Of a stretch of DNA of 28,243 nucleotides, positions 8,041 to 25,494 are shown in pieces; the first letter of the stretch is position 1; the number at the start of each line of letters is the position of its first letter. The stretch is from assembly GCA_009929095.1 (NCBI GenBank), contig SABF01000004.1:1-28243 (forward strand). Reading direction: 5' to 3'. The notes beneath the pieces are model-generated. The model was not told where the DNA came from, searched no databases, and saw only the letters and a program-made list of their open reading frames with translations. Source of the stretch: Erysipelotrichia bacterium (GTDB lineage: Bacteria; Bacillota_I; Bacilli_A; Erysipelotrichales; Erysipelotrichaceae). The translations under genes were made by a program, and so were the position numbers.

Positions 8041-9401
8041 AAATTTTACAGCCAGTTCAGTCCGGTTGACACAGCTGGTTTTCTTCAGCACATTCTTCAT
8101 GTGAAACTTGACAGTGCTTTCTGAGATGTACAGATCATTGGCAATTTCACCGTTGGCTCTTCCCTTGACAGCAAGCCGGAATACCTCACATTCTCTTGCC
8201 GAGAGACCATACTGCATTTCAAATGCACTCAGCAGCTTTTCCTCATTCTGTTCCTGGGACAGAACAGGAACGTAAAGAATGTGATAGAGCTTGAAGAACA
8301 GAATCACAGTAGCGACAAAGAGTACAGCGGCAATCAGAACCAGAGCGACCTCATTCTGCTCCAGCAGCATTCCGCCCGTGGTTCCAGCCGCATCTCCGAT
8401 TTGGCCAGGCAGGAGCCCGAACCCGGCAGTCCAGATCAGGCTGCTGTTTTAGCGGCAATATCGCAGAATACTGAAATTCGGTAGACCGAGAAGAAGCCGA
8501 AGAACACATAGCCGAGAATCCAAAGTACCGAAGCAGCGGCTGGAACATCCTTCAGAACAAAAGAAATGAATGGGAATACCAGTGCGGCTAAACAGCAGAC
8601 TGCCACATACTTTCGATTGCGGTCACCGATCAATCCTGCAGAGATAAGACCGGCCGCATAGAAAGCCCGTGAGAATTCCAAACTGATGGTACCGCCGACA
8701 GACTGTGAGAGCGGGAAGCAGAAGCCGAGTCCCTTGACACCCGACAGAAGTATGATAACCGCAGCGATCAGCGCAACCTGCGGTTTTCTGAATGTCGAAG
8801 ACGAATTGACATTCTCCTGAGAGAGTTCCTGTTTCCCGCGGTCATTTACTGCAATGATCAGCAGAATCAGGATCAGGTAAACTGTCAGACAGAATGCCGA
8901 ACGCAGGAAATGATGATTCATGGGAATGGATAATTGTCAGGTGGCGATACTGCCAAGACCGTAGCCAAAGCCGAAGACAATGCATTTTTTCTGCTGCGGC
9001 ACATAAAGAGCCAGCTTGGTCAGATAGACGCCCGCGGTCATGCCATGCAGAAGATTCATCACCAGACCGATGATCAGCACAGCTTCCCGAGAACCTGCAA
9101 GCATCATGACAGTGATTACAATGCCATCCAGAGTGATCACTGCCGGCAGAAAGCGGCGATTGGCTGCTGCGGCCGGTCTGTACTTTACCAGAAGGGCAAA
9201 CAGGAACAGACCAAGTGCCTGTATGAGATAGCCGACGCCTTCCGACAGAAGATCGGCCTGGCAGCTTCCGAAGAAATCAGTCAGTCGATACAGTCAGGAA
9301 ATATATGCTGATCCGGCAAACAGAAAGCACAGGAAAATGAGCAGGAAAATGCGGAGTTCAGTCTGGTTCTGTTTTATACATCTTTTTTGTCCGGCAGTCA
9401 T
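8029..9401 (-). pseudogene. Broken MFS-type membrane / LuxR-HTH regulator
   Basis: Read on the minus strand from ATG 9401, the product would be a ~455-aa membrane-bound regulator: about 12 hydrophobic segments followed by a LuxR/GerE helix-turn-helix (near the C-terminus: Leu-Ser-Ala-Arg-Glu-x-Glu-Val, Ser-Glu-Ser-Thr-Val-Lys-Phe-His-Met-Lys-Asn-Val). Three lesions interrupt it. Codon 36 (9296-9294) is TGA, codon 155 (8939-8937) is TGA, and near 8440 the frame changes: the membrane part ends at a TGA at 8436-8438, while the sequence continuing into the HTH is open in another frame (Ile-Trp-Thr-Ala-Gly-Phe-Gly-Leu-Leu-Pro-Gly-Gln). The open pieces are 8937-9140 and beyond, 8436-8921 and 8029-8370. 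Homologous MFS-LuxR proteins are usually intact single genes. No Shine-Dalgarno is evident at 9401. Decay seems likelier than three sequencing errors, but I cannot exclude the latter. Confidence 0.8.
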
Positions 9402-9503
9402 CTTAGAAATGTTATATCACGGAATTGATCAGCTGGAGAAGCCGGAATGAATGGCTGAACCGGATATGTTCAGCCTGCCTGAAAACCTATCCCAAACCTG
9501 TCT

Positions 9504-9531
9504 TTGATATATGAACTGAGTTATCTATGAT
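9504..9531 (+). promoter_or_regulatory. Promoter of the envelope-protein operon
   Basis: TTGATA (9504-9509) and TATGAT (9526-9531) with a 16-bp spacer, about 30 bp before the M4 peptidase start. Confidence 0.6.
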
Positions 9532-9561
9532 GAAGCTGCAGGCAGTATGGAGGGAACAGGT

Positions 9562-11361
9562 ATGAAAGCATGCGGGAGACTGTCAGTTTTTGTGATAGGA
9601 GCACTTCTTTTGTGTGCCTGTTCAGAAAACTGCGGCACTTATCAGATCAGCACGCCGAACAGCAGGATAAATACAGAAGCGCAGTACAGCAATTCTGTTC
9701 AGCACAACAGCACGGTGCAGCTGAGTGAAGAAGATATTCAGAACATGAATGATCATCATGCACTGTTTGCCTACAGTGATGAAGGCTATGTGACATCTTT
9801 GGTGGGCAGATACTCAGAAGATAAGATTGAAGACTATGAAGATGCTGTGGCCTCCCTCAATGGAGTGGCTGCCTTGATCGGACTGTCAGAAGGATCGGAA
9901 TTCTTCTGTGTATATGGTGAAAAAGATAATGACGGATATACCTACTATACCTTTCAGCAGAGATACGGCGGCTATACGCTGAAGTATGCGACACTGAGGG
10001 TCGTTGTAGACCCGCAGGGATATACTGCCGGCCTGTCTTCCTCCTTTACACCGAATATCGGCATTGCCGCTGAACAGTCCAGCATCACAGCAGAAGAAGC
10101 AGAAGACATTGTCAGAAGTGCATATCAAAATGATGATATGATTCTCTGCCATGACTCCACAAAGCAGCTGGCACTGACACTGAACAATCAGACCGTAAAC
10201 TGCTTTGCGGTATATACCTCCAGCCCGAATGTATCAGCTGAATTCGACATGCTGTATCTGGAACACTTCGTCGCTTTCACCGGAGAGTATCTGACGTGCA
10301 TTCCGACATCTTCTCTGAATACCGAGAATACCAATGCGTATAAGACAGATGCCTACTTTGAGAATCTGACTGCAGCTGCCTATACCGGAACCGTCACGCT
10401 GTATGACGGAACAGTCAGGACAATTACCGTCCCGGTTGCCTATAACTCAAAGGACGGGAAATACTACCTGGCGGATATCGACAGAAAGATCATGGTCGCA
10501 GACTGCTATGATTTCAACTATGAATATAAACTCAGCGGTATTACGAGCCCGGACAATTCGGGATGGCAGGACAGTCATCTGCTGGCCTATGCAAATTATA
10601 TTCAAGCCTATGATTTCTACGCGTCCATGGGGATCTATTCCGTGGATGGATTCGGCACCCCGATATTAATTACCGTGGACTGGTGTGACAAGGATCATAA
10701 TTCGGTCAACAATGCCTGCTACTACGGTGTCATTGATGGCTGGGCATGTTTTGGTGTATCCCGGTCCAATCGCTACTGCGACGCTCTGGATATTGTTGTG
10801 CATGAATTTACACACGGGATAACTGCCAACTCCATGCAGGGAAGCTTCTACCAGAATGAGACCGGAGCGATCAATGAAGCTTACAGCGATATCATGGGAA
10901 ACCTGATTGAGATGCGCAGCGGTGCAACGGATGATACGACCTGGCTGGTTGGTAAAAATTCCGGCACGCCGGCTAGATGTATGAGTGATCCCGGCAGCTG
11001 TCATCAGCCGGAATATGTCGGAGATATCTATTACCTGCCAGAGGTATATAGACCGGATTACTTTACCAATGACTATGGCGGGGTGCACATGAATAATTCT
11101 CTGGCTTCCAATGCGGCGTATCTGCTGCATGAAGCAGGCATGAGACTTGAGGATGAATGTTCACTTTATCTGACCTCAATCGAACTGATGACTCCATATG
11201 CAGATTACGATGACCTGTATACCTCTCTCATCTTCAGCTGCAGAATCAACGGCTTGAATCGATATGAAGACAGGATAACTGAAATTTCAGAGAGAAGGGA
11301 CTGCTCGGAAATCGAATCGAGAATGCCCGGACTGCCGCGAGAGATGGCTATGGCAGAGTGA
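9562..11361 (+). CDS. M4-family (thermolysin-like) metallopeptidase lipoprotein, frameshifted near its C-terminus
   Basis: A secreted zinc endopeptidase anchored as a lipoprotein (lipobox Leu-Leu-Cys-Ala-Cys). Residues ~50-200 resemble the FTP/PepSY propeptide. The catalytic part holds His-Glu-Phe-Thr-His at 414-418, the third zinc ligand Glu439 in Gly-Ala-Ile-Asn-Glu-Ala-Tyr-Ser-Asp, and the active-site histidine His509 in Gly-Gly-Val-His-Met-Asn-Asn-Ser, so the core looks active. ATG 9562 is preferred over 9547 because GGAGG lies 8 nt upstream. The last ~27 residues, from about 11280, do not resemble the family; in another frame the sequence reads Asn-Phe-Arg-Glu-Lys-Gly-Leu-Leu-Gly-Asn-Arg-Ile-Glu-Asn-Ala and runs on to 11636. 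A one-base indel near 11281 is the likely cause. First gene of an operon reaching 16090. Confidence 0.88.
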   Translation: MKACGRLSVFVIGALLLCACSENCGTYQISTPNSRINTEAQYSNSVQHNSTVQLSEEDIQNMNDHHALFAYSDEGYVTSLVGRYSEDKIEDYEDAVASLNGVAALIGLSEGSEFFCVYGEKDNDGYTYYTFQQRYGGYTLKYATLRVVVDPQGYTAGLSSSFTPNIGIAAEQSSITAEEAEDIVRSAYQNDDMILCHDSTKQLALTLNNQTVNCFAVYTSSPNVSAEFDMLYLEHFVAFTGEYLTCIPTSSLNTENTNAYKTDAYFENLTAAAYTGTVTLYDGTVRTITVPVAYNSKDGKYYLADIDRKIMVADCYDFNYEYKLSGITSPDNSGWQDSHLLAYANYIQAYDFYASMGIYSVDGFGTPILITVDWCDKDHNSVNNACYYGVIDGWACFGVSRSNRYCDALDIVVHEFTHGITANSMQGSFYQNETGAINEAYSDIMGNLIEMRSGATDDTTWLVGKNSGTPARCMSDPGSCHQPEYVGDIYYLPEVYRPDYFTNDYGGVHMNNSLASNAAYLLHEAGMRLEDECSLYLTSIELMTPYADYDDLYTSLIFSCRINGLNRYEDRITEISERRDCSEIESRMPGLPREMAMAE

Positions 11362-16386: not shown

Positions 16387-16572
16387 ATGGATAAGACATT
16401 CAGCTGGAGCGGCATCAAGAAAGAAGCCAAGCGCGTTCGCTGGCCAAAGATGAAGGATACTTTCCAGAGTTCGAGTGAGGTTCTGGCTTTTACCGTGTTC
16501 TTTGCACTGTTCTTCGTGCTGTGTGATTTTGGCGTTCAGTTTCTGCTGAAGGCACTTGGAATAGGAGCTTAA
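16387..16572 (+). CDS. secE: Preprotein translocase subunit SecE
   Basis: A short SecE (61 aa) with one membrane helix, the usual form in Gram-positives. The N-terminal amphipathic region ends with Lys-Arg-Val-Arg-Trp-Pro (the conserved Trp-Pro motif), followed by the membrane helix (Val-Leu-Ala-Phe-Thr-Val-Phe-Phe-Ala-Leu-Phe-Phe-Val). SecE clamps SecY in the plasma-membrane translocon. It is placed between rpmG and nusG, with GGAGG upstream, and nusG starts 5 bp after its stop. Confidence 0.95.
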   Translation: MDKTFSWSGIKKEAKRVRWPKMKDTFQSSSEVLAFTVFFALFFVLCDFGVQFLLKALGIGA

Positions 16573-16577
16573 GATCA

Positions 16578-17174
16578 ATGGCAAATGAAATGAATCTGAC
16601 ACAGGAAGAACTCGAGAGCGTAACAGATGACAAGAATATCAAGCGCTGGTACGTCGTCAATACATATTCCGGTCACGAAAACAAAGTCAAGGAAAATCTG
16701 GAGAAGCGCGTTGAGTCCATGGGAATCAGCGACTGCCTGTTCCGGATTGTAGTTGCGGAAGAACCCGAGATTGAAATCAAGAACGGCAAGCAGGTTGAGA
16801 AGATGCACAACATGTTTCCGGGCTATGTCTTCGTGGAAATGAAGATGACAGATGAAGCCTGGTATGTTGTACGCAATACTCCGGGCGTCACCGGATTTAT
16901 CGGATCATCCGGCGGCGGAGCCAAGCCATTCCCGGTATCCCCGGATGAAATGGAAAGCATTCTGCGCCGTATGGGCCAGAGTGACAAGAAGGTTGTCGTA
17001 GACTTCAAGATCGGCGATACTGTACGTATTCTGACCGGTCCGTTCGGCGGCATGGAAGGACAGATCTCCACCATGAACGATCAGACACAGATTGCCAATA
17101 TCCTGATCAATCTGTTTGGTCGTGAGACACCTACCGATATTAACTATAACGATCTTCAGAAAGTGTCTGACTGA
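16578..17174 (+). CDS. nusG: Transcription termination/antitermination factor NusG
   Basis: A 198-aa NusG. The NGN domain begins around residue 23 (Lys-Arg-Trp-Tyr-Val-Val-Asn-Thr-Tyr-Ser-Gly-His-Glu) and contains Met-Phe-Pro-Gly-Tyr-Val-Phe-Val and Val-Arg-Asn-Thr-Pro-Gly-Val-Thr-Gly-Phe; the KOW domain is at the C-terminus (Ile-Gly-Asp-Thr-Val-Arg-Ile-Leu-Thr-Gly-Pro-Phe-x-Gly-Met-Glu-Gly). It binds RNA polymerase and modulates pausing and termination. An acidic N-terminal extension of ~20 aa is a mild oddity. A terminator follows at 17186, so unlike in many bacteria rplK-rplA are not downstream. Confidence 0.97.
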   Translation: MANEMNLTQEELESVTDDKNIKRWYVVNTYSGHENKVKENLEKRVESMGISDCLFRIVVAEEPEIEIKNGKQVEKMHNMFPGYVFVEMKMTDEAWYVVRNTPGVTGFIGSSGGGAKPFPVSPDEMESILRRMGQSDKKVVVDFKIGDTVRILTGPFGGMEGQISTMNDQTQIANILINLFGRETPTDINYNDLQKVSD

Positions 17175-17185
17175 TCACAAAAACA

Positions 17186-17216
17186 AAGCCCTGCATTCAA
17201 GTGCAGAGCTTTTTTA
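17186..17216. terminator. Terminator after nusG, shared with the MerR gene
   Basis: AAGC(C)CTGCA pairs with TGCAG(A)GCTT around a TTCAAG loop, followed by T6. On the minus strand it gives CTTTGTTTTT, so it can also end the convergent MerR gene. Confidence 0.85.
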
Positions 17217-17227
17217 ACAGACTCGAT

Positions 17228-18052
17228 TTATCTGGCTCCTTGATCCACAGTGTCATTTTCTTCGATGCATGCCCGAATGCGAAAGCAGTAAACAGGCACT
17301 TCAGCGTCCATATGAATGCGGATCAGATATCCGGTTGTTCCGCTGACAAATGGCTTGTGCAATTTCTTTGCATAATCCATCATCGGCTTCAGCTGCAGAA
17401 CGTTGATCTTTTTCAGATCTTTCAGCATGACTACTTCGGAAAGACAGATGCCATTCGGGACCTTTCTTGCATGAGAGGGAATTGGAATCTGATTCTGATT
17501 CAGGATGTACCGATAAGTTCCGACCCCCACTTCCAGGGATATGATGCGGTCAGTGCAGTCTCCGTTCAGGACTTCTTTGGAGATGAACAGGGTCGGCGTA
17601 CTCATTCGATAAAGACTTGTTCTGGCTTTCATGGATAGAGCTTTTCGATTCTGCAGCAGATCATAGAAATCAAACTTGTCATCGATCGACTGAAATTTCA
17701 ATACATTGGATTCTCCAGTGGAAAAGCTCTCCTTAATGTGTCTTCGCTCAAACTCCAGAAAACGAAGCTGTTCCTGCAGATCGGCAATTTCTCCTTCAAT
17801 ATTTCGGGTTTCCCGATCAAGAGCAGACAGCTGCTGCTCCGTACTGCCGGTGTTGATAATGCATTCAATATCAGATGCAGAAAGAGAGATGGATCTCATC
17901 TTTCGTACATACAGAAGAGATACATAATCTTCAGATCCATAGTCATAATAGCCGTTTTCCAGCCTGGTCGGATGAAGCAGGCCTTTAACGCGCCATGAAC
18001 GGATAGTTTCGGCATTAATGCCGGTCAGCTGTGAAAGTTCATTGATTTTCAT
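17228..18052 (-). CDS. MerR-family transcriptional regulator with a large C-terminal ligand domain
   Basis: A 274-aa DNA-binding protein. Residues 1-70 are a MerR winged helix (Asn-Glu-Leu-Ser-Gln-Leu-Thr-Gly-Ile-Asn-Ala-Glu-Thr-Ile-Arg-x-Trp, then Tyr-Asp-Tyr near 37-39 and Tyr-Val-Arg-Lys-Met-Arg), residues ~75-125 are the dimerising coiled coil, and ~135-265 form a two-lobed region that could be a GyrI-like ligand-binding domain (strands with Arg-Ile-Ile-Ser-Leu-Glu and Ile-Arg-Ile-His-Met-Asp-Ala-Glu). The start has AGGAGAT upstream. It is divergent from the flavin reductase and the spacer holds a MerR-type operator, so it probably senses a substrate or redox ligand and controls that gene and itself; ligand unknown. 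Confidence 0.88.
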   Translation of the reverse strand: MKINELSQLTGINAETIRSWRVKGLLHPTRLENGYYDYGSEDYVSLLYVRKMRSISLSASDIECIINTGSTEQQLSALDRETRNIEGEIADLQEQLRFLEFERRHIKESFSTGESNVLKFQSIDDKFDFYDLLQNRKALSMKARTSLYRMSTPTLFISKEVLNGDCTDRIISLEVGVGTYRYILNQNQIPIPSHARKVPNGICLSEVVMLKDLKKINVLQLKPMMDYAKKLHKPFVSGTTGYLIRIHMDAEVPVYCFRIRACIEENDTVDQGAR

Positions 18053-18071
18053 GGATCTCCTCTGAATGCGC

Positions 18072-18102
18072 TTGACCCTGTAAACAATACAGGGTTTATA
18101 AA
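18072..18102 (+). promoter_or_regulatory. MerR-type promoter and dyad operator of the flavin reductase
   Basis: -35 TTGACC (18072-18077) and -10 TATAAA (18097-18102) are 19 bp apart. Between them lies a perfect inverted repeat, ACCCTGT (18075-18081) and ACAGGGT (18089-18095), with a 7-bp centre. An over-long 19-bp spacer with a dyad inside is the hallmark of promoters that MerR proteins activate by untwisting DNA. Its place between the divergent MerR and reductase genes makes the link strong, though experimentally untested. Confidence 0.85.
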
Positions 18103-18105
18103 TAT

Positions 18106-18134
18106 AGTATATCTGTTTGTGAATGACAGCACAA
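18106..18134 (-). promoter_or_regulatory. Promoter of the MerR gene (minus strand)
   Basis: On the minus strand TTGTGC (18134-18129) and TATACT (18111-18106) are 17 bp apart. The dyad operator lies just downstream of its start point, so binding would repress the regulator (autoregulation). Confidence 0.55.
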
Positions 18135-18153
18135 ATTGATTTGGGAGGAAAGA

Positions 18154-20700
18154 ATGAAGAAGACAGTAAAAGGTATTTTATCTGCCCTCATGGCCCTCAG
18201 TATGGTTGGATGTTCTGCATCCACTGCAGCCGGCGGAAAGTTCAAAGCCGGCAAATACACGGGAACCGGAAAGGGAAACAATGGAGACATCACTGTAGAA
18301 GTGACACTTTCCAGCGATGCAATCACTGACATTAAGGTTACAGATCAGAAGGAGACAGCAGGCATCTCAGATGATGCGATTGCCAATATCCCTCAGGAGA
18401 TCATTGATGCACAGTCTGTGAATGTAGACACCATCAGCGGTGCTACACATTCATCAGAGGGCATCATCGAGGCAGTTACCAAAGCGCTTGAATCAGCAGG
18501 CGTTGATGTGAGCACACTGGGAAATGCCACAGCATCTGAACACAAGAATGTACCGGTTGCTTATACCGCAGGAACCTATACCGGAACCGGTTCCGGTTAT
18601 AATGGCGATGTTGTTCTGGATGTAACATTCAGCGAGGACGGCATTACTGATATTACAGTTAATTCATCCAAGGAGACAGAACATGTCGGTACTGTCGCAT
18701 ATGACTATCTGTTTGATGACATCAAGAATGCCAATGGAACAGGTGTTGACAGTATTTCTGGCGCAACTTTCACCAGCAATGGCGTCAAGAAAGCAGTCAA
18801 TGATGCGGCTGAACAGGCCAAGGCATCTGATCTTGACGGTTTCAAGAACAATACAGTGACACTGACTGCATCTGATCCAATTGAAGACAGCTGGGATGTT
18901 GTCATCGTTGGTGCCGGCGGAGCTGGCATCGCAGCAGCAGCTCAGGCTGCTCAGGACGGAAACACAGTACTGGTCATTGAGAAGAACGCTGAAATCGGCG
19001 GAAATACACTGGTGTCCGGCGGTCAGTATCAGAGCGTTATGCCGTATCTGGTATGGGATTCCACAGATCCGGATGCGACAACAGGTGTTGGCTACGATGG
19101 CAATACTTATAACAAGGTTACGTCCGTGCAGGGATGCATTGACGAACTGAAGACCATTCTGAACTGGTCTGAAGACGAATTCGATTCTGACTACTACAAG
19201 ACACATGATTTTGTGGCAGGTGATATTGAAGAACTTTCCAAGCATGGTGTTGTAGCGGAGTATCTCCCGACACTGCAGGCACTGAAGAAAGAAATCAAGG
19301 CATATCTTGACTGGGCTGAGCCAAAGCTGAAGGCCGGCACACCGGAAAGTGAGATCACTCTGTTTTCCACAGTCAATCTGCACATTTTCCAGACATACTA
19401 TGGCGGACTTCGTCCGAATGCAGATATGACAAAATGGGAATATGGAAGTTATGATCTGGTCAGCCAGTTCATCAAAGATGGTCAGGATCTGAAGCCATGG
19501 CTGGAAGCACAGGGATCTACTTTTGTGGAAGATACCCAGCCGACATTGATCGGTGCACTCTGGTACAGAGAGAATCAGTTCATCGGCGCAAATGTAGATA
19601 CTGATGGCGATGGAAAGACGGAAGAGTATAAAGGCAGATGGGGCACTTACTTTGTCGCTCCGCGTCAGACAATGCTTAACGCAGACGATCATAATCAGAT
19701 CATGCTGAGAACAACAGCAGACAGCCTGATTACAGATGGCGATGGCAAGGTAACAGGAGTCAAAGCCACAAAGTATGACGGCACTCAGGTAACTGCCAAG
19801 GCTAATAAGGGTGTCATCATTGCGACTGGCGGCTATGCTGCAAATCTCCAGGAAGTCGTAGATACCAATGAATACTGGTCTTCTGACTATCTGTCCACCA
19901 GCACCAAGACAACCAACCGTTCCTCTCTGCAGGGTGACGGTATCGTCATGGGTGAAGATGCAGGAGCCTCTGTCACCGGCATGGGCTGGACACAGATGAT
20001 GCCGATCAGCTGGATTGATGACGGAAACCTCGCATTCGGCGGCGGTGACTATGCAGTCTATATCAATCCGACAACCGGCAAGCGTTTTGTCAACGAGACT
20101 TCAGAACGTGACGTTCTGTCATTGGCAGAATTCAAGAACGGCATTGATGTTGATGGTGTCAAGGGCGTATTCCTTGAAATTGCCAATGCGGAAGCACCGA
20201 TCCCTGGACCGTATCTGTACAAGGATGAAGATGTTAAAATGAGACAGTATGTTCGCACAGTAGATGAACTCGCAGATCTGTTTACCGAGATGGGCATGCC
20301 TACTGATGCGGCAACAGTGAAAGAAACAATTGAAAACTATGACAAGGCAATCATGGCTGGCGAACAGCCGGCTGATGTAGCTAAGTCTACAGCCAGCAGA
20401 CTGATCGGCAGTGCCGAACAGAATGCAGATGGTTCTTATAATCCAGATACCTATACCCTGGATGGTGTGAAGCTGCGTGTCCGTGTCATGGCACCTTCAA
20501 CACATCATACAATGGGCGGCCTGACAGTTGATACTGCACGCCACTGCATCGACAGCAAGGGAAATCAGATCAAGGGTCTCTATGCTGCAGGTGAAGTAAC
20601 TGGCGGCATTCACGGCGGCAACCGTCTTGGCGGCAATGCCATTGTTGAGATATTTGTCTCTGGCCGTACTGCAGCTAAAGCGATCAACGCAGATAACTGA
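18154..20700 (+). CDS. FMN/FAD flavoprotein reductase lipoprotein (fumarate/urocanate-reductase type)
   Basis: An 848-aa extracytosolic lipoprotein (lipobox Ser-Met-Val-Gly-Cys at Cys20). Two FMN-binding domains (~30-120, ~130-220) each carry the flavinylation motif: Asp-Thr-Ile-Ser-Gly-Ala-Thr (Thr98) and Asp-Ser-Ile-Ser-Gly-Ala-Thr (Thr205), which ApbE-type transferases modify with FMN. The FAD_binding_2 domain starts at 248 (Gly-x-Gly-x-x-Gly at 253-258); substrate-site signs are His-His-Thr-Met-Gly-Gly at 784-789 and Gly-Gly-Ile-His-Gly-Gly-Asn-Arg-Leu-Gly-Gly-Asn-Ala at 817-829. The family reduces C=C double bonds such as fumarate, urocanate or related unsaturated acids, taking electrons through the FMNs. 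ATG 18154 follows GGGAGG. It is monocistronic and probably MerR-regulated. Substrate not determinable by eye; a duplicated FMN domain is uncommon. Confidence 0.9.
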   Translation: MKKTVKGILSALMALSMVGCSASTAAGGKFKAGKYTGTGKGNNGDITVEVTLSSDAITDIKVTDQKETAGISDDAIANIPQEIIDAQSVNVDTISGATHSSEGIIEAVTKALESAGVDVSTLGNATASEHKNVPVAYTAGTYTGTGSGYNGDVVLDVTFSEDGITDITVNSSKETEHVGTVAYDYLFDDIKNANGTGVDSISGATFTSNGVKKAVNDAAEQAKASDLDGFKNNTVTLTASDPIEDSWDVVIVGAGGAGIAAAAQAAQDGNTVLVIEKNAEIGGNTLVSGGQYQSVMPYLVWDSTDPDATTGVGYDGNTYNKVTSVQGCIDELKTILNWSEDEFDSDYYKTHDFVAGDIEELSKHGVVAEYLPTLQALKKEIKAYLDWAEPKLKAGTPESEITLFSTVNLHIFQTYYGGLRPNADMTKWEYGSYDLVSQFIKDGQDLKPWLEAQGSTFVEDTQPTLIGALWYRENQFIGANVDTDGDGKTEEYKGRWGTYFVAPRQTMLNADDHNQIMLRTTADSLITDGDGKVTGVKATKYDGTQVTAKANKGVIIATGGYAANLQEVVDTNEYWSSDYLSTSTKTTNRSSLQGDGIVMGEDAGASVTGMGWTQMMPISWIDDGNLAFGGGDYAVYINPTTGKRFVNETSERDVLSLAEFKNGIDVDGVKGVFLEIANAEAPIPGPYLYKDEDVKMRQYVRTVDELADLFTEMGMPTDAATVKETIENYDKAIMAGEQPADVAKSTASRLIGSAEQNADGSYNPDTYTLDGVKLRVRVMAPSTHHTMGGLTVDTARHCIDSKGNQIKGLYAAGEVTGGIHGGNRLGGNAIVEIFVSGRTAAKAINADN

Positions 20701-20711
20701 GTCTGTTCAGT

Positions 20712-20764
20712 AAAAAAGCCCGCCTGTACTGGGAGTGTCATATTCCGGTACGGGAGGGCTTTTT
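20712..20764. terminator. Terminator after the flavin reductase
   Basis: AAAAAGCCC(G)CC-TGTAC pairs with GGTACGG-GAGGGCTTTTT, with T runs on both strands. Confidence 0.85.
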
Positions 20765-20791
20765 ATCTGAATATCTTTGTTAAGATAAGAA

Positions 20792-20800
20792 TGATATAAT
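20792..20800 (+). promoter_or_regulatory. Extended -10 promoter of ktrBA
   Basis: A perfect TATAAT (20795-20800) preceded by TGA, an extended -10 (TGnTATAAT). No good -35 is visible at 16-18 bp. Confidence 0.65.
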
Positions 20801-20826
20801 CGTCTCATTGCGAAGGGAAGATAGAA

Positions 20827-22164
20827 ATGCGGATTACACGGTTTTTCTTGAAACAAAGATATTCCTCATTCAGGATTATCCTGATGGGGTTCTTGGGACT
20901 GATTCTTGCTGGAACACTATGCTTGATGACACCAATGGCCTCCAATGCACATATATGGACTTCATTCATTGATGCGCTGTTCACTTCTACTTCGGCTGTC
21001 TGCGTGACAGGACTGGTGGTACGTGATACCGGAACCTATTGGTCAATGTTCGGACAGACGATCATTCTGCTGCTGATTCAGATCGGAGGCGTCGGAGTTG
21101 TAACTGCGGCAGTGTCCATTGCCCTGTATTCCGGACGCAAGATAGGCCTGATGCAGAGAAGCATTATGCAGGATGCGATTGCGGCACCGCAGGTTGGCGG
21201 TATTGTCCGGATGACCGGATTTATCATCAAAGCCACCGTGGCAATTGAACTGCTTGGTGCGGCGATTATGGCACCTACATTTATACGCGATTTCGGATTC
21301 TGGCGCGGTGTCTGGTTTGCCGTGTTTCATTCTATTTCAGCTTTCTGCAATGCCGGCTTTGATCTGCTGGGAGTCCGAGAACAGTATTCCTCGCTGACCA
21401 GTTATGCTTCAAGCCCGGCAATTAATCTGACCATTATGTCTCTGATTGTTATTGGCGGTATCGGTTTTCTGACATGGGAAGATATTCATAAGTTTGGCCT
21501 GCGGATTCGCAAGTACAGACTGCAGTCGAAGATCATTCTTACGATTACGGCAATTCTGATTGTTGTTCCGACAGTTTACTTCTATTTTGCGGAATTTACA
21601 GCCGGTGCTCGCGGCACAAGATTTCTGGAATCAATGTTCATGGCAGTTACACCGAGAACGGCAGGCTTTAATACGGTAGATCTGACCAAGATCAGTGAAG
21701 CAGGACAGTTTCTGACAATTCTGCTGATGCTGATAGGCGGTGCACCTGGTTCTACTGCAGGCGGAATGAAGGTCACCACAATCTCAACATTGTTTCTCTC
21801 TATGCGCTCAAGCATGCTTCAAAAAAGATATGCAACGTGCTATGGAAGACGCCTGGAAATGGATATTGTTCACGCGGCGGCGACAGTGTTCTTCCTGTAT
21901 CTGTCATTGTTCTTCATCGGTTCAGTTGCAATTTCAAGAATCGAAGGTCTTCCGATGATGGCCTGTCTGTTTGAAACAGCTTCTGCTCTGAATACGGTTG
22001 GTCTTACACTTGGTATTACAACAAAGCTTCATACTGCATCAAGAATTATTCTGATATGCTATATGTACATCGGCCGGGTTGGCGGAATGACGCTGGCATT
22101 TGCCGCTCTGAAGAGCAGCTATGTGGCATCCAAGATGCCGGCAGAAAAGATCATGATTGGTTAA
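20827..22164 (+). CDS. ktrB: Potassium uptake channel subunit KtrB/TrkH
   Basis: A 445-aa integral membrane protein of the SKT family with four membrane-pore-membrane repeats. Pore loops with the selectivity glycine are visible: Thr-Ser-Ala-Val-Cys-Val-Thr-Gly-Leu, Ser-Ala-Phe-Cys-Asn-Ala-Gly-Phe, Thr-Pro-Arg-Thr-Ala-Gly-Phe-Asn-Thr and Thr-Ala-Ser-Ala-Leu-Asn-Thr-Val-Gly-Leu. The gating loop motif Gly-Gly-Ala-Pro-Gly-Ser-Thr-Ala-Gly-Gly-Met-Lys is intact. It imports K+ (Na+-dependent in the Ktr type) with its cytosolic RCK partner KtrA, encoded 18 bp downstream. Length fits KtrB rather than the longer TrkH. GAAGGGAAG precedes the start. Confidence 0.95.
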   Translation: MRITRFFLKQRYSSFRIILMGFLGLILAGTLCLMTPMASNAHIWTSFIDALFTSTSAVCVTGLVVRDTGTYWSMFGQTIILLLIQIGGVGVVTAAVSIALYSGRKIGLMQRSIMQDAIAAPQVGGIVRMTGFIIKATVAIELLGAAIMAPTFIRDFGFWRGVWFAVFHSISAFCNAGFDLLGVREQYSSLTSYASSPAINLTIMSLIVIGGIGFLTWEDIHKFGLRIRKYRLQSKIILTITAILIVVPTVYFYFAEFTAGARGTRFLESMFMAVTPRTAGFNTVDLTKISEAGQFLTILLMLIGGAPGSTAGGMKVTTISTLFLSMRSSMLQKRYATCYGRRLEMDIVHAAATVFFLYLSLFFIGSVAISRIEGLPMMACLFETASALNTVGLTLGITTKLHTASRIILICYMYIGRVGGMTLAFAALKSSYVASKMPAEKIMIG

Positions 22165-24564: not shown

Positions 24565-25494
24565 ATGCCAATTAAAAACGCAATAGTGATGGCTGCCGGG
24601 AAAGGCACACGTATGCATTCTGATCTGCCCAAAGTACTGCATCAGGTATGCGGCATGTCTATGGCAGAACTGATTGTTCACAGTCTCAGGGAGGCTGGTG
24701 CAGATCGGGTGGTAACCATTGTCGGCTTCGGACACGAACAGGTAGAAAAGACCCTTGAAGGACAGTGTGAATTCGCACTGCAGGAGCCTCAGCTGGGAAC
24801 CGGCCATGCAGTGATGCAGGCAGTTCAGCTGGAAGAAAGCGAAGGACTCACGGTTGTCGCAAATGGCGACGTCCCATGCATGCGCAGCGAAACCTATAGC
24901 AAACTGTTTGAGGCAGTGCAGGATTCAGATATGGCCGTGCTGACAGTATCTCTTGAAGATGCAGCGGCTTATGGAAGAGTGGTCACCAGCCCGGATGGCA
25001 GTGTAGAGAAAATTGTGGAGTTCAAGGATTGCAGTGCATCTGAAATGGCAATTCATGAAATCAATACAGGCATTTACGCCTTTGATAATAAAAAATTATT
25101 TGAGTGTCTCAAGCTTCTTAAAAATGATAATGCTCAGCATGAATACTATATTACCGATTTGGTTGAGATTTTTCGTTCAAAGGGATATCGCGTCAAGGCG
25201 GTTGAAGCGCTGGACAAAGAGGAAGTGCAGGGTGTCAATGACTGCCTGGAACTGTCAGAGAGGCAGACAGTGCTGCGTCGGAGAATAAACTCTGAATGGA
25301 TGAAAAAGGGAGTGACCATAGTCAATCCGGAAAATACAGATATCGGACCGGAAGTAGTAATTGGAAAAGATGTCATTATCTATCCCAATGTTATCCTTTA
25401 CGGAAAAACGGTTATCGGCGATGGTACAGTGATTTACCCGGGATCATTCCTCGAAGATGAAATCATTGCTGATCATCAGATTATCAGCAGGTAG
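24565..25494 (+). CDS. glmU: GlmU-like N-acetylglucosamine-1-phosphate uridyltransferase, lacking the acetyltransferase half
   Basis: GlmU makes UDP-GlcNAc for peptidoglycan. This 309-aa protein has the complete pyrophosphorylase domain: Ala-Ala-Gly-Lys-Gly-Thr-Arg-Met at 10-17, Asp-Leu-Pro-Lys-Val-Leu-His, Gln-Leu-Gly-Thr-Gly-His-Ala, Asn-Gly-Asp-Val-Pro, Tyr-Gly-Arg-Val-Val and Glu-Ile-Asn-Thr-Gly-Ile-Tyr. Only the first turns of the left-handed beta helix follow (Ile-Gly-Pro-Glu-Val-Val-Ile-Gly, Val-Ile-Gly-Asp-Gly-Thr-Val-Ile) and it stops where the usual ~450-aa enzyme goes on to the acetyltransferase site. The spacer to prs (66 bp) has no room for the missing part. So either a separate acetyltransferase exists or the gene was shortened. 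GGAGGT precedes the ATG; glmU-prs order is as in Bacillus. Confidence 0.9.
   Translation: MPIKNAIVMAAGKGTRMHSDLPKVLHQVCGMSMAELIVHSLREAGADRVVTIVGFGHEQVEKTLEGQCEFALQEPQLGTGHAVMQAVQLEESEGLTVVANGDVPCMRSETYSKLFEAVQDSDMAVLTVSLEDAAAYGRVVTSPDGSVEKIVEFKDCSASEMAIHEINTGIYAFDNKKLFECLKLLKNDNAQHEYYITDLVEIFRSKGYRVKAVEALDKEEVQGVNDCLELSERQTVLRRRINSEWMKKGVTIVNPENTDIGPEVVIGKDVIIYPNVILYGKTVIGDGTVIYPGSFLEDEIIADHQIISR

Follow-up and report, generated by a model that had tools for sequence, protein, structure and literature searches.

Which compound does an exported flavin reductase act on, and does the MerR-family regulator encoded beside it serve as its dedicated switch? The question arises from 28,243 nucleotides of an uncultured, Solobacterium-like Erysipelotrichia bacterium (contig SABF01000004.1, hereafter the window; contig C75 of a 507-contig, 2.1-Mb assembly of 74.6% completeness). 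Here a gene for a MerR-family regulator of 274 aa (17228..18052, minus strand) and a gene for a flavin reductase of 848 aa (18154..20700, plus strand, ATG start) are divergently arranged, as an earlier note on this DNA had described. We understand the two genes as a self-contained, inducible electron-acceptor module in which MerR controls an exported, flavinylated reductase of an unsaturated monocarboxylic acid, and we assign this reading a probability of roughly 0.6. The module is real, the support for its control by MerR comes close to the most that sequence comparison can give, and the switch protein very probably turns on the divergent reductase.

The regulator–reductase pair and its operator

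The pairing recurs in a sample of 70 genomes from the Bulleidia/Solobacterium group (the genus sample). A full-length MerR orthologue occurs in 28 of them, set off by a clean gap in similarity (weakest E 1.1e-55, next match 2.4e-14), and MerR is never found there without the reductase. The reductase is present in 40 of the 70 genomes, that is, in 28/28 with MerR and 12/42 without (Fisher 2.5e-10, kinship ignored), and in 27 of 27 fetched loci besides the window it, or its start at a contig end, lies divergent from MerR. Distances among the regulators correlate with those among the reductases (r 0.71 over 24 pairs, a value reached by none of 2000 permutations). One set of MerR orthologues comprised 25 of the 28 sequences, without L044, L046 and L053. 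Other neighbours of the module are common to close relatives or to a few loci only. Given the co-occurrence, the conserved operator described below and the unshared flanks, the pair is regarded as a two-gene unit; the neighbouring genes, common as they are to close relatives only, were rejected as a clue to the substrate.

In the MerR family, according to PMC9909328, target promoters carry the operator dyad within a spacer of 19–20 bp, and this architecture is found both in the window and across the module promoters. The predicted reductase promoter (18072..18102, plus strand) consists of a −35 element TTGACC (18072-18077) and a −10 element TATAAA (18097-18102) separated by 19 bp. Embedded in it is the putative MerR operator (18075..18095), ACCCTGTA-AACAA-TACAGGGT. 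The earlier note had placed a perfect 7+7 dyad inside a 19-bp-spaced promoter; dyad and spacing stand, and the arms prove longer, a perfect 8+8 repeat at 18075-18082 and 18088-18095 with 5 nucleotides between. Searched as one pattern with up to three mismatches allowed, the −35 element, dyad and TTTATA have a single match in the window, and 100 shuffles gave none. Across 29 module promoters (the window, 27 genus loci and L115 from another genus), TTGAC is kept in all; the dyad arm matches at 7/7 positions in 12 promoters, 6/7 in 13 and 5/7 in 4; and a −10-like hexamer (at least 4/6 against TATAAT of the E. coli-type consensus) follows at 19 bp in 28, L029 having 3/6. The operator at 29/29 module promoters, together with the constant company of MerR and reductase in the genus, argues for the MerR-type control that had been proposed. 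A generic promoter scan of 16500-21000 returned 7 sites against 7.2 expected and listed neither of the promoters described here; its spacer limit of 16–18 leaves it without power in this case.

Searched genome-wide with at most one mismatch, the operator is found in 28/28 module genomes and 2/42 others of the genus. Outside the module the pattern has 4 sites in the 70 genomes, compared with 6 for a reversed control, and a wider MerR regulon was rejected on that account; among the four, the site in G046 adjoins another MerR-like gene (464 aa) and that in G050 lies within an open frame. MerR would thus have essentially one strong target. In one genome (G013, locus L048) a DDE transposase gene (9019-10773) stands between merR and the operator, and the operator stays with the reductase.

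A second promoter, facing the regulator, had also been claimed. Its sequence is present (18095..18123, minus strand; TTCACA at 18123-18118, 17 bp, TATAAA at 18100-18095), and as a promoter this candidate is moderately supported at best. It scores 10/12; when the stretch was shuffled 200 times by mononucleotide, 4 shuffles reached that score. TTCACA recurs at offset 43-46 in just 11/29 module promoters and is itself half of the leader palindrome, which the candidate overlaps. Transcription from it would start within the dyad, which would imply autorepression.

Two further arrangements are recorded here as observations. Upstream of position 7920 in L188 (Holdemania massiliensis), a 19-bp-spaced MerR-like promoter, TTGACCTGTAAGCCGCTAACAGGTTTATAAT, precedes an orthologous reductase; another reductase is divergent from it, with no adjacent MerR. 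In L128 (G065), a different MerR-like gene of about 25% identity (8596-9408) lies directly upstream of the reductase and co-oriented with it, with a Rex-like site between the two.

Sensor, active site and electron supply

The regulator begins with a winged helix-turn-helix (HTH) domain (MerR_1, 50.9 bits against a cut-off of 21.6), continues into a coiled coil and ends in a domain for which a GyrI-like fold is predicted. The predicted structure resembles BmrR, the MerR-family multidrug sensor of Bacillus subtilis and the closest fold found, along its length, consistent with the proposal that the C-terminal domain of about 140 aa is a sensor of organic-ligand type. That it is not a Cys-rich metal site likewise agrees with the residues: Cys262 (46/53), Cys203 (32/53) and Cys166 (15/53) form no conserved cluster, and sensing of metal or iron–sulphur is not favoured. 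In the BmrR subgroup a glutamate selects cationic drugs; the conserved charged residues here are D124, K126, D128, R258 and R260. Arg258 and Arg260, near the C-terminus, are nearly invariant and set this MerR apart from BmrR, as do an overall identity of 13% and a target that is a flavin reductase rather than an efflux pump.

Behind a ribosome-binding site GGGAGG (18143..18148, plus strand), the reductase starts with a lipoprotein signal (lipobox LSMVGC) and comprises two FMN_bind domains with one SGAT motif each to be counted, two in all, followed by a catalytic FAD_binding_2 domain (Pfam). It thereby shows the [S/T]GA[S/T] motif, export signal and FAD_binding_2 domain that define extracytosolic flavinylated reductases. 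The NCBIfam flavocytochrome c model TIGR01813 scores 208.8 bits, under its curated cut-off of 285.45. In a comparison of 82 sequences, the window included (leaving aside sequences below 780 aa, the duplicates L166, L176, L177 and L180, and 18 loci of the module that had been counted before), Thr98 and Thr205, the predicted flavinylation sites, are kept in 82/82 and the lipobox-column cysteine in 59/82.

The best PDB sequence matches of the reductase are the urocanate reductase UrdA of Shewanella (1.9e-42) and the flavocytochrome c3 fumarate reductase FccA (1.1e-31). In alignment to both, the enzyme retains the catalytic arginine (R652) and the residues that bind the proximal carboxylate (H784/H785, R824), which correspond to Arg411 and His520/Arg560 of UrdA and, in FccA, to Arg402 and the proximal clamp. 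The distal side differs. In FccA, distal clamp and proton path are made up of His365, Thr377 and Glu378/Arg381; His365, Thr377 and Glu378 align with M616, F628 and G629, and Arg381 with a gap. In UrdA, whose residue roles we take from PMC10882135, Tyr373, Asp388 and Glu177 align with M616, G631 and Q291. Domain organization differs as well, the present enzyme having two FMN_bind domains unlike UrdA and lacking the haem domain of FccA. All these active-site residues are identical in 82/82 sequences save Q291 (76/82).

An active site with the proximal clamp intact and an apolar far end would best fit an unsaturated monocarboxylate of cinnamate or acrylate type, perhaps of plant origin. An analogy by description, as distinct from sequence, is the methacrylate reductase Mrd of Geobacter sulfurreducens AM-1: according to PMC4427408, it reduces monocarboxylic acrylates, is reported without fumarate reduction, and has lost both distal clamp residues (Trp and Val in their place) with the proximal Arg residues kept. 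Mrd differs in its separate cytochrome c and in the replacing residues. Because of W620 and F628, and because many relatives come from ruminant guts, cinnamate-type acids are our first guess, a tentative one with the odds somewhat against it; small acrylates come second.

Extracytosolic electron acceptance, as the earlier note had it, is supported by the lipobox and FMN motifs and by the genomic equipment for flavinylation and electron transfer. ApbE occurs in 67/70 genus genomes, the window's own included (C301), and an RnfD-family protein in 69/70. In the window's own genome ApbE adjoins RnfC at a contig end, and in the near relative G036 ApbE and an RnfD-family gene are about 2 kb apart, within what by eye is a longer rnf-like run. 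NusG_II proteins, a group that includes EetA, occur in 63/70. In the relative L193, two Rnf-Nqr membrane subunits, a ferredoxin-type protein and ApbE are followed by the reductase. An RNF-linked electron path to the reductase is therefore suggested as likely.

From the observed gene arrangement, operator conservation, co-occurrence, domains and aligned residues we infer a physiological role, ligand, substrate class and electron donor as follows. MerR would sit on the 19-bp-spaced promoter and hold it closed until an organic ligand binds the BmrR-like C-terminal domain, distorting the spacer and switching on the divergent reductase. The reductase would be exported as a lipoprotein, flavinylated twice by ApbE and supplied with electrons from a membrane flavin system, most likely the RNF complex. 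Its substrate, outside the cell, would be an unsaturated monocarboxylic acid whose double bond it reduces, the cinnamate/acrylate kind being most likely, and either this acid or the product of the reduction would be the likely MerR ligand.

Several observations weigh against this account. The C-terminal fold of MerR derives from a predicted model at the low identity to BmrR given above; in sequence-profile searches, none of them made with the C-terminal domain by itself, PDB chains are matched in the N-terminal part only, and chains matching just the N-terminal 68 residues reach an almost equal Z (12.4). In the model of the reductase the active site is poorly predicted (pLDDT below 50 at 621-632 and 821-827), so the model was rejected as active-site evidence and residues were mapped by sequence alignment. 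Since 12 of the 40 reductase-bearing genus genomes are without this MerR, the enzyme does not depend on it. The window's own assembly, incomplete as it is, has no RnfD match. Finally, the module has no transporter, though a cytoplasmic sensor combined with an enzyme outside the cell needs uptake of substrate or product.

Competing explanations and the leader palindrome

An ordinary fumarate or urocanate reductase is what the best PDB matches and the names given in their sources to two relatives (urocanate reductase; fumarate reductase) would suggest, and the earlier note had cited those acids among the substrates of such lipoproteins. The distal residues that define both activities, as described in PMC10882135 and PMC4427408, are absent in 82/82 sequences, and a paralogue in the same genome (C369, L056), located near a response regulator, keeps the full fumarate-reductase clamp set; we consider the idea very improbable and have rejected it on the active-site residues. 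Detoxification instead of respiration would have MerR sense a toxic compound, a plant phenolic or something drug-like, that the reductase neutralises outside the cell, any energy gain being incidental. The predicted similarity to a multidrug sensor speaks for it, as do the single-gene target and the lack of adjoining respiratory partners. Reduction of hydroxycinnamates by lactobacilli is likewise under a dedicated regulator: according to PMC10295242, HcrB of L. plantarum is a flavin reductase under regulation that acts on unsaturated acids from plants. Its resemblance to the present enzyme is one of description; its regulator HcrR is of LysR and not MerR type, and it is described as needing NADH and FMN. 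Characterised FMN_bind-containing enzymes of the fumarate-reductase-like kind are extracytosolic and respiratory according to PMC8238504, and the reductase relative in the RNF–ApbE gene run of L193 points the same way; detoxification thus seems unlikely. Besides the fumarate-type paralogue, the window's own genome encodes a further flavin reductase (L055, C161), followed by a LysR regulator gene.

A palindrome in the reductase leader (18111..18140, plus strand), absent from the earlier note, lies between the −10 element and the ribosome-binding site; about half of the orthologues have a Rex-like form of it and others a hairpin-like one, and in the window it can be drawn both ways. Read as DNA, it holds TTGTGAATGACAGCACAA (18117-18134), which agrees at 12/14 positions with a TTGTTAANNNNTTAACAA-type consensus and is the only site of that strength in the window. 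Rex, a sensor of NADH/NAD+, would repress there while MerR activates, so that switching on the reductase would take both the substrate and an over-reduced cell. Rex-like sites reach p ≤ 0.05 in 15 of 29 leaders (the window, 26 genus loci without L048, L115 and L148; the L052 leader was mis-cut at 60 nt, into the gene; 200 mononucleotide shuffles each), with a combined chi2 of 163.9 on 58 df (degrees of freedom). A Rex N-domain is encoded in 64/70 genus genomes, the window's own included, and genus loci totalling 580,151 bases, chosen around reductases, contain three sites of at least 13/14, all of them at module or reductase promoters, compared with a mean of 0.6 sites for five control palindromes. 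Against such two-input control, 14/29 leaders fall short of p 0.05; the palindromes of L031, L035, L040-L042 and L045 lack the Rex letters; upstream of MerR-less reductases the enrichment is slight (10/64, chi2 158.1 on 128 df); and no site of at least 12/14 is present at the RNF/ApbE and NusG_II loci L214-L216 and L218. The consensus, moreover, is a relaxed version of one quoted in PMC9600882, and the comparison covers loci other than the genus's known Rex targets. We hold this control to be doubtful. Read as RNA, the palindrome would form a hairpin that protects the reductase mRNA or tunes its translation. Tested against 100 mononucleotide shuffles per leader, an inverted repeat is significant in 13/29 (combined chi2 161.5 on 58 df), the arms vary among species yet remain paired, and the position is just 5' of the ribosome-binding site; 16/29 leaders, however, fall short of p 0.05, L047 and L051 have leaders too short to hold it (24 and 23 nt), and about half of the sites resemble one DNA motif. 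The hairpin is possible, with the odds clearly against it. Both combined chi2 values for the leaders are overstated, because related leaders are not independent. A fuller proposal, that a BmrR-fold MerR was recruited as a dedicated electron-acceptor sensor at a promoter working as an AND gate, MerR reporting the acid and Rex the need for an electron sink, we regard as unlikely; if true, the regulator's ligand would reveal the substrate of a reductase type whose active site is invariant and uncharacterised.

Distribution, significance and further features of the window

A family search of 272 genomes gave 30 matches, namely the 28 of the genus, a full-length relative in G138 and an N-terminal match in G174, and no further members were added by searches of the order (29/315), of relatives of G138 (3/294) or of an even sample of the phylum (3/392). 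In G138 the reductase opposite the MerR relative (30% identity) is a different one, with 37% identity and a single FMN_bind domain; it lies behind the operator TTGACTCTGTAATAAATACAGAGTTTATAGT and carries the same active-site signature, TQ[LM]MPI...LA.G.G. A Lachnospiraceae metagenome-derived locus, L148, combines a MerR of 36% identity with the operator and a double-FMN reductase (no search was aimed at the Lachnospiraceae as a whole). Among 80 named loci of 279 relatives, genus members carry the titles Solobacterium, Erysipelotrichaceae and Bulleidia extructa, with several samples from rumen (RUG in the record titles) or other ruminant gut; reductase relatives in the same 80 belong to Lachnospiraceae, Oribacterium, Treponema, Synergistaceae and Holdemania. 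The reductase frame was recovered in 84 of 94 loci and in none of the other 10.

At loci without MerR, the nearest upstream gene encodes NusG_II in 6/50, ApbE in 3/50, TetR in 3/50 and another MerR_1 protein in 2/50 cases; this set of 50 from 58 leaves out 6 duplicates and 2 wrong frames in module loci (L144, L172). In the Hungatella-like L154, a reductase relative lies after genes for TetR, an ABC transporter and an ABC_sub_bind protein, which may hint at the substrate but name none; L153 and L162, also Hungatella-like, have the same TetR/ABC-transporter arrangement, judged by gene length and first residues only.

What is new here is that a BmrR-like sensor is repeatedly paired with a flavin reductase outside the cell; a literature search, which did not extend to Little et al. 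2024 (Nat Microbiol 9:55) on gut flavin reductases, found no title or abstract pairing MerR with such reductases. With one sensor tied to one outside reductase, the substrate question becomes a screen for the compound that induces the promoter. The reductase type with the invariant active site extends over Erysipelotrichaceae, Lachnospiraceae, Treponema and Synergistaceae, and its key residues are alike across several anaerobe lineages, many of them ruminant-gut by title, so that a single substrate, once known, would serve to annotate many genomes and could inform the question of which ruminant-gut microbes hydrogenate plant acids.

Among the remaining features of the window, a terminator-like hairpin 3' of the reductase (20723..20754, plus strand) is proposed from a consensus match alone, 4 terminator-like sites having turned up against 3.4 expected. 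A GlmU-like protein (24565-25494) has just 309 aa, most of its C-terminal acetyltransferase domain being seemingly absent as read by eye, and the gene at 9547-11361, also read by eye, encodes a secreted metallopeptidase of M4 (thermolysin-like) type with an HEFTH motif.

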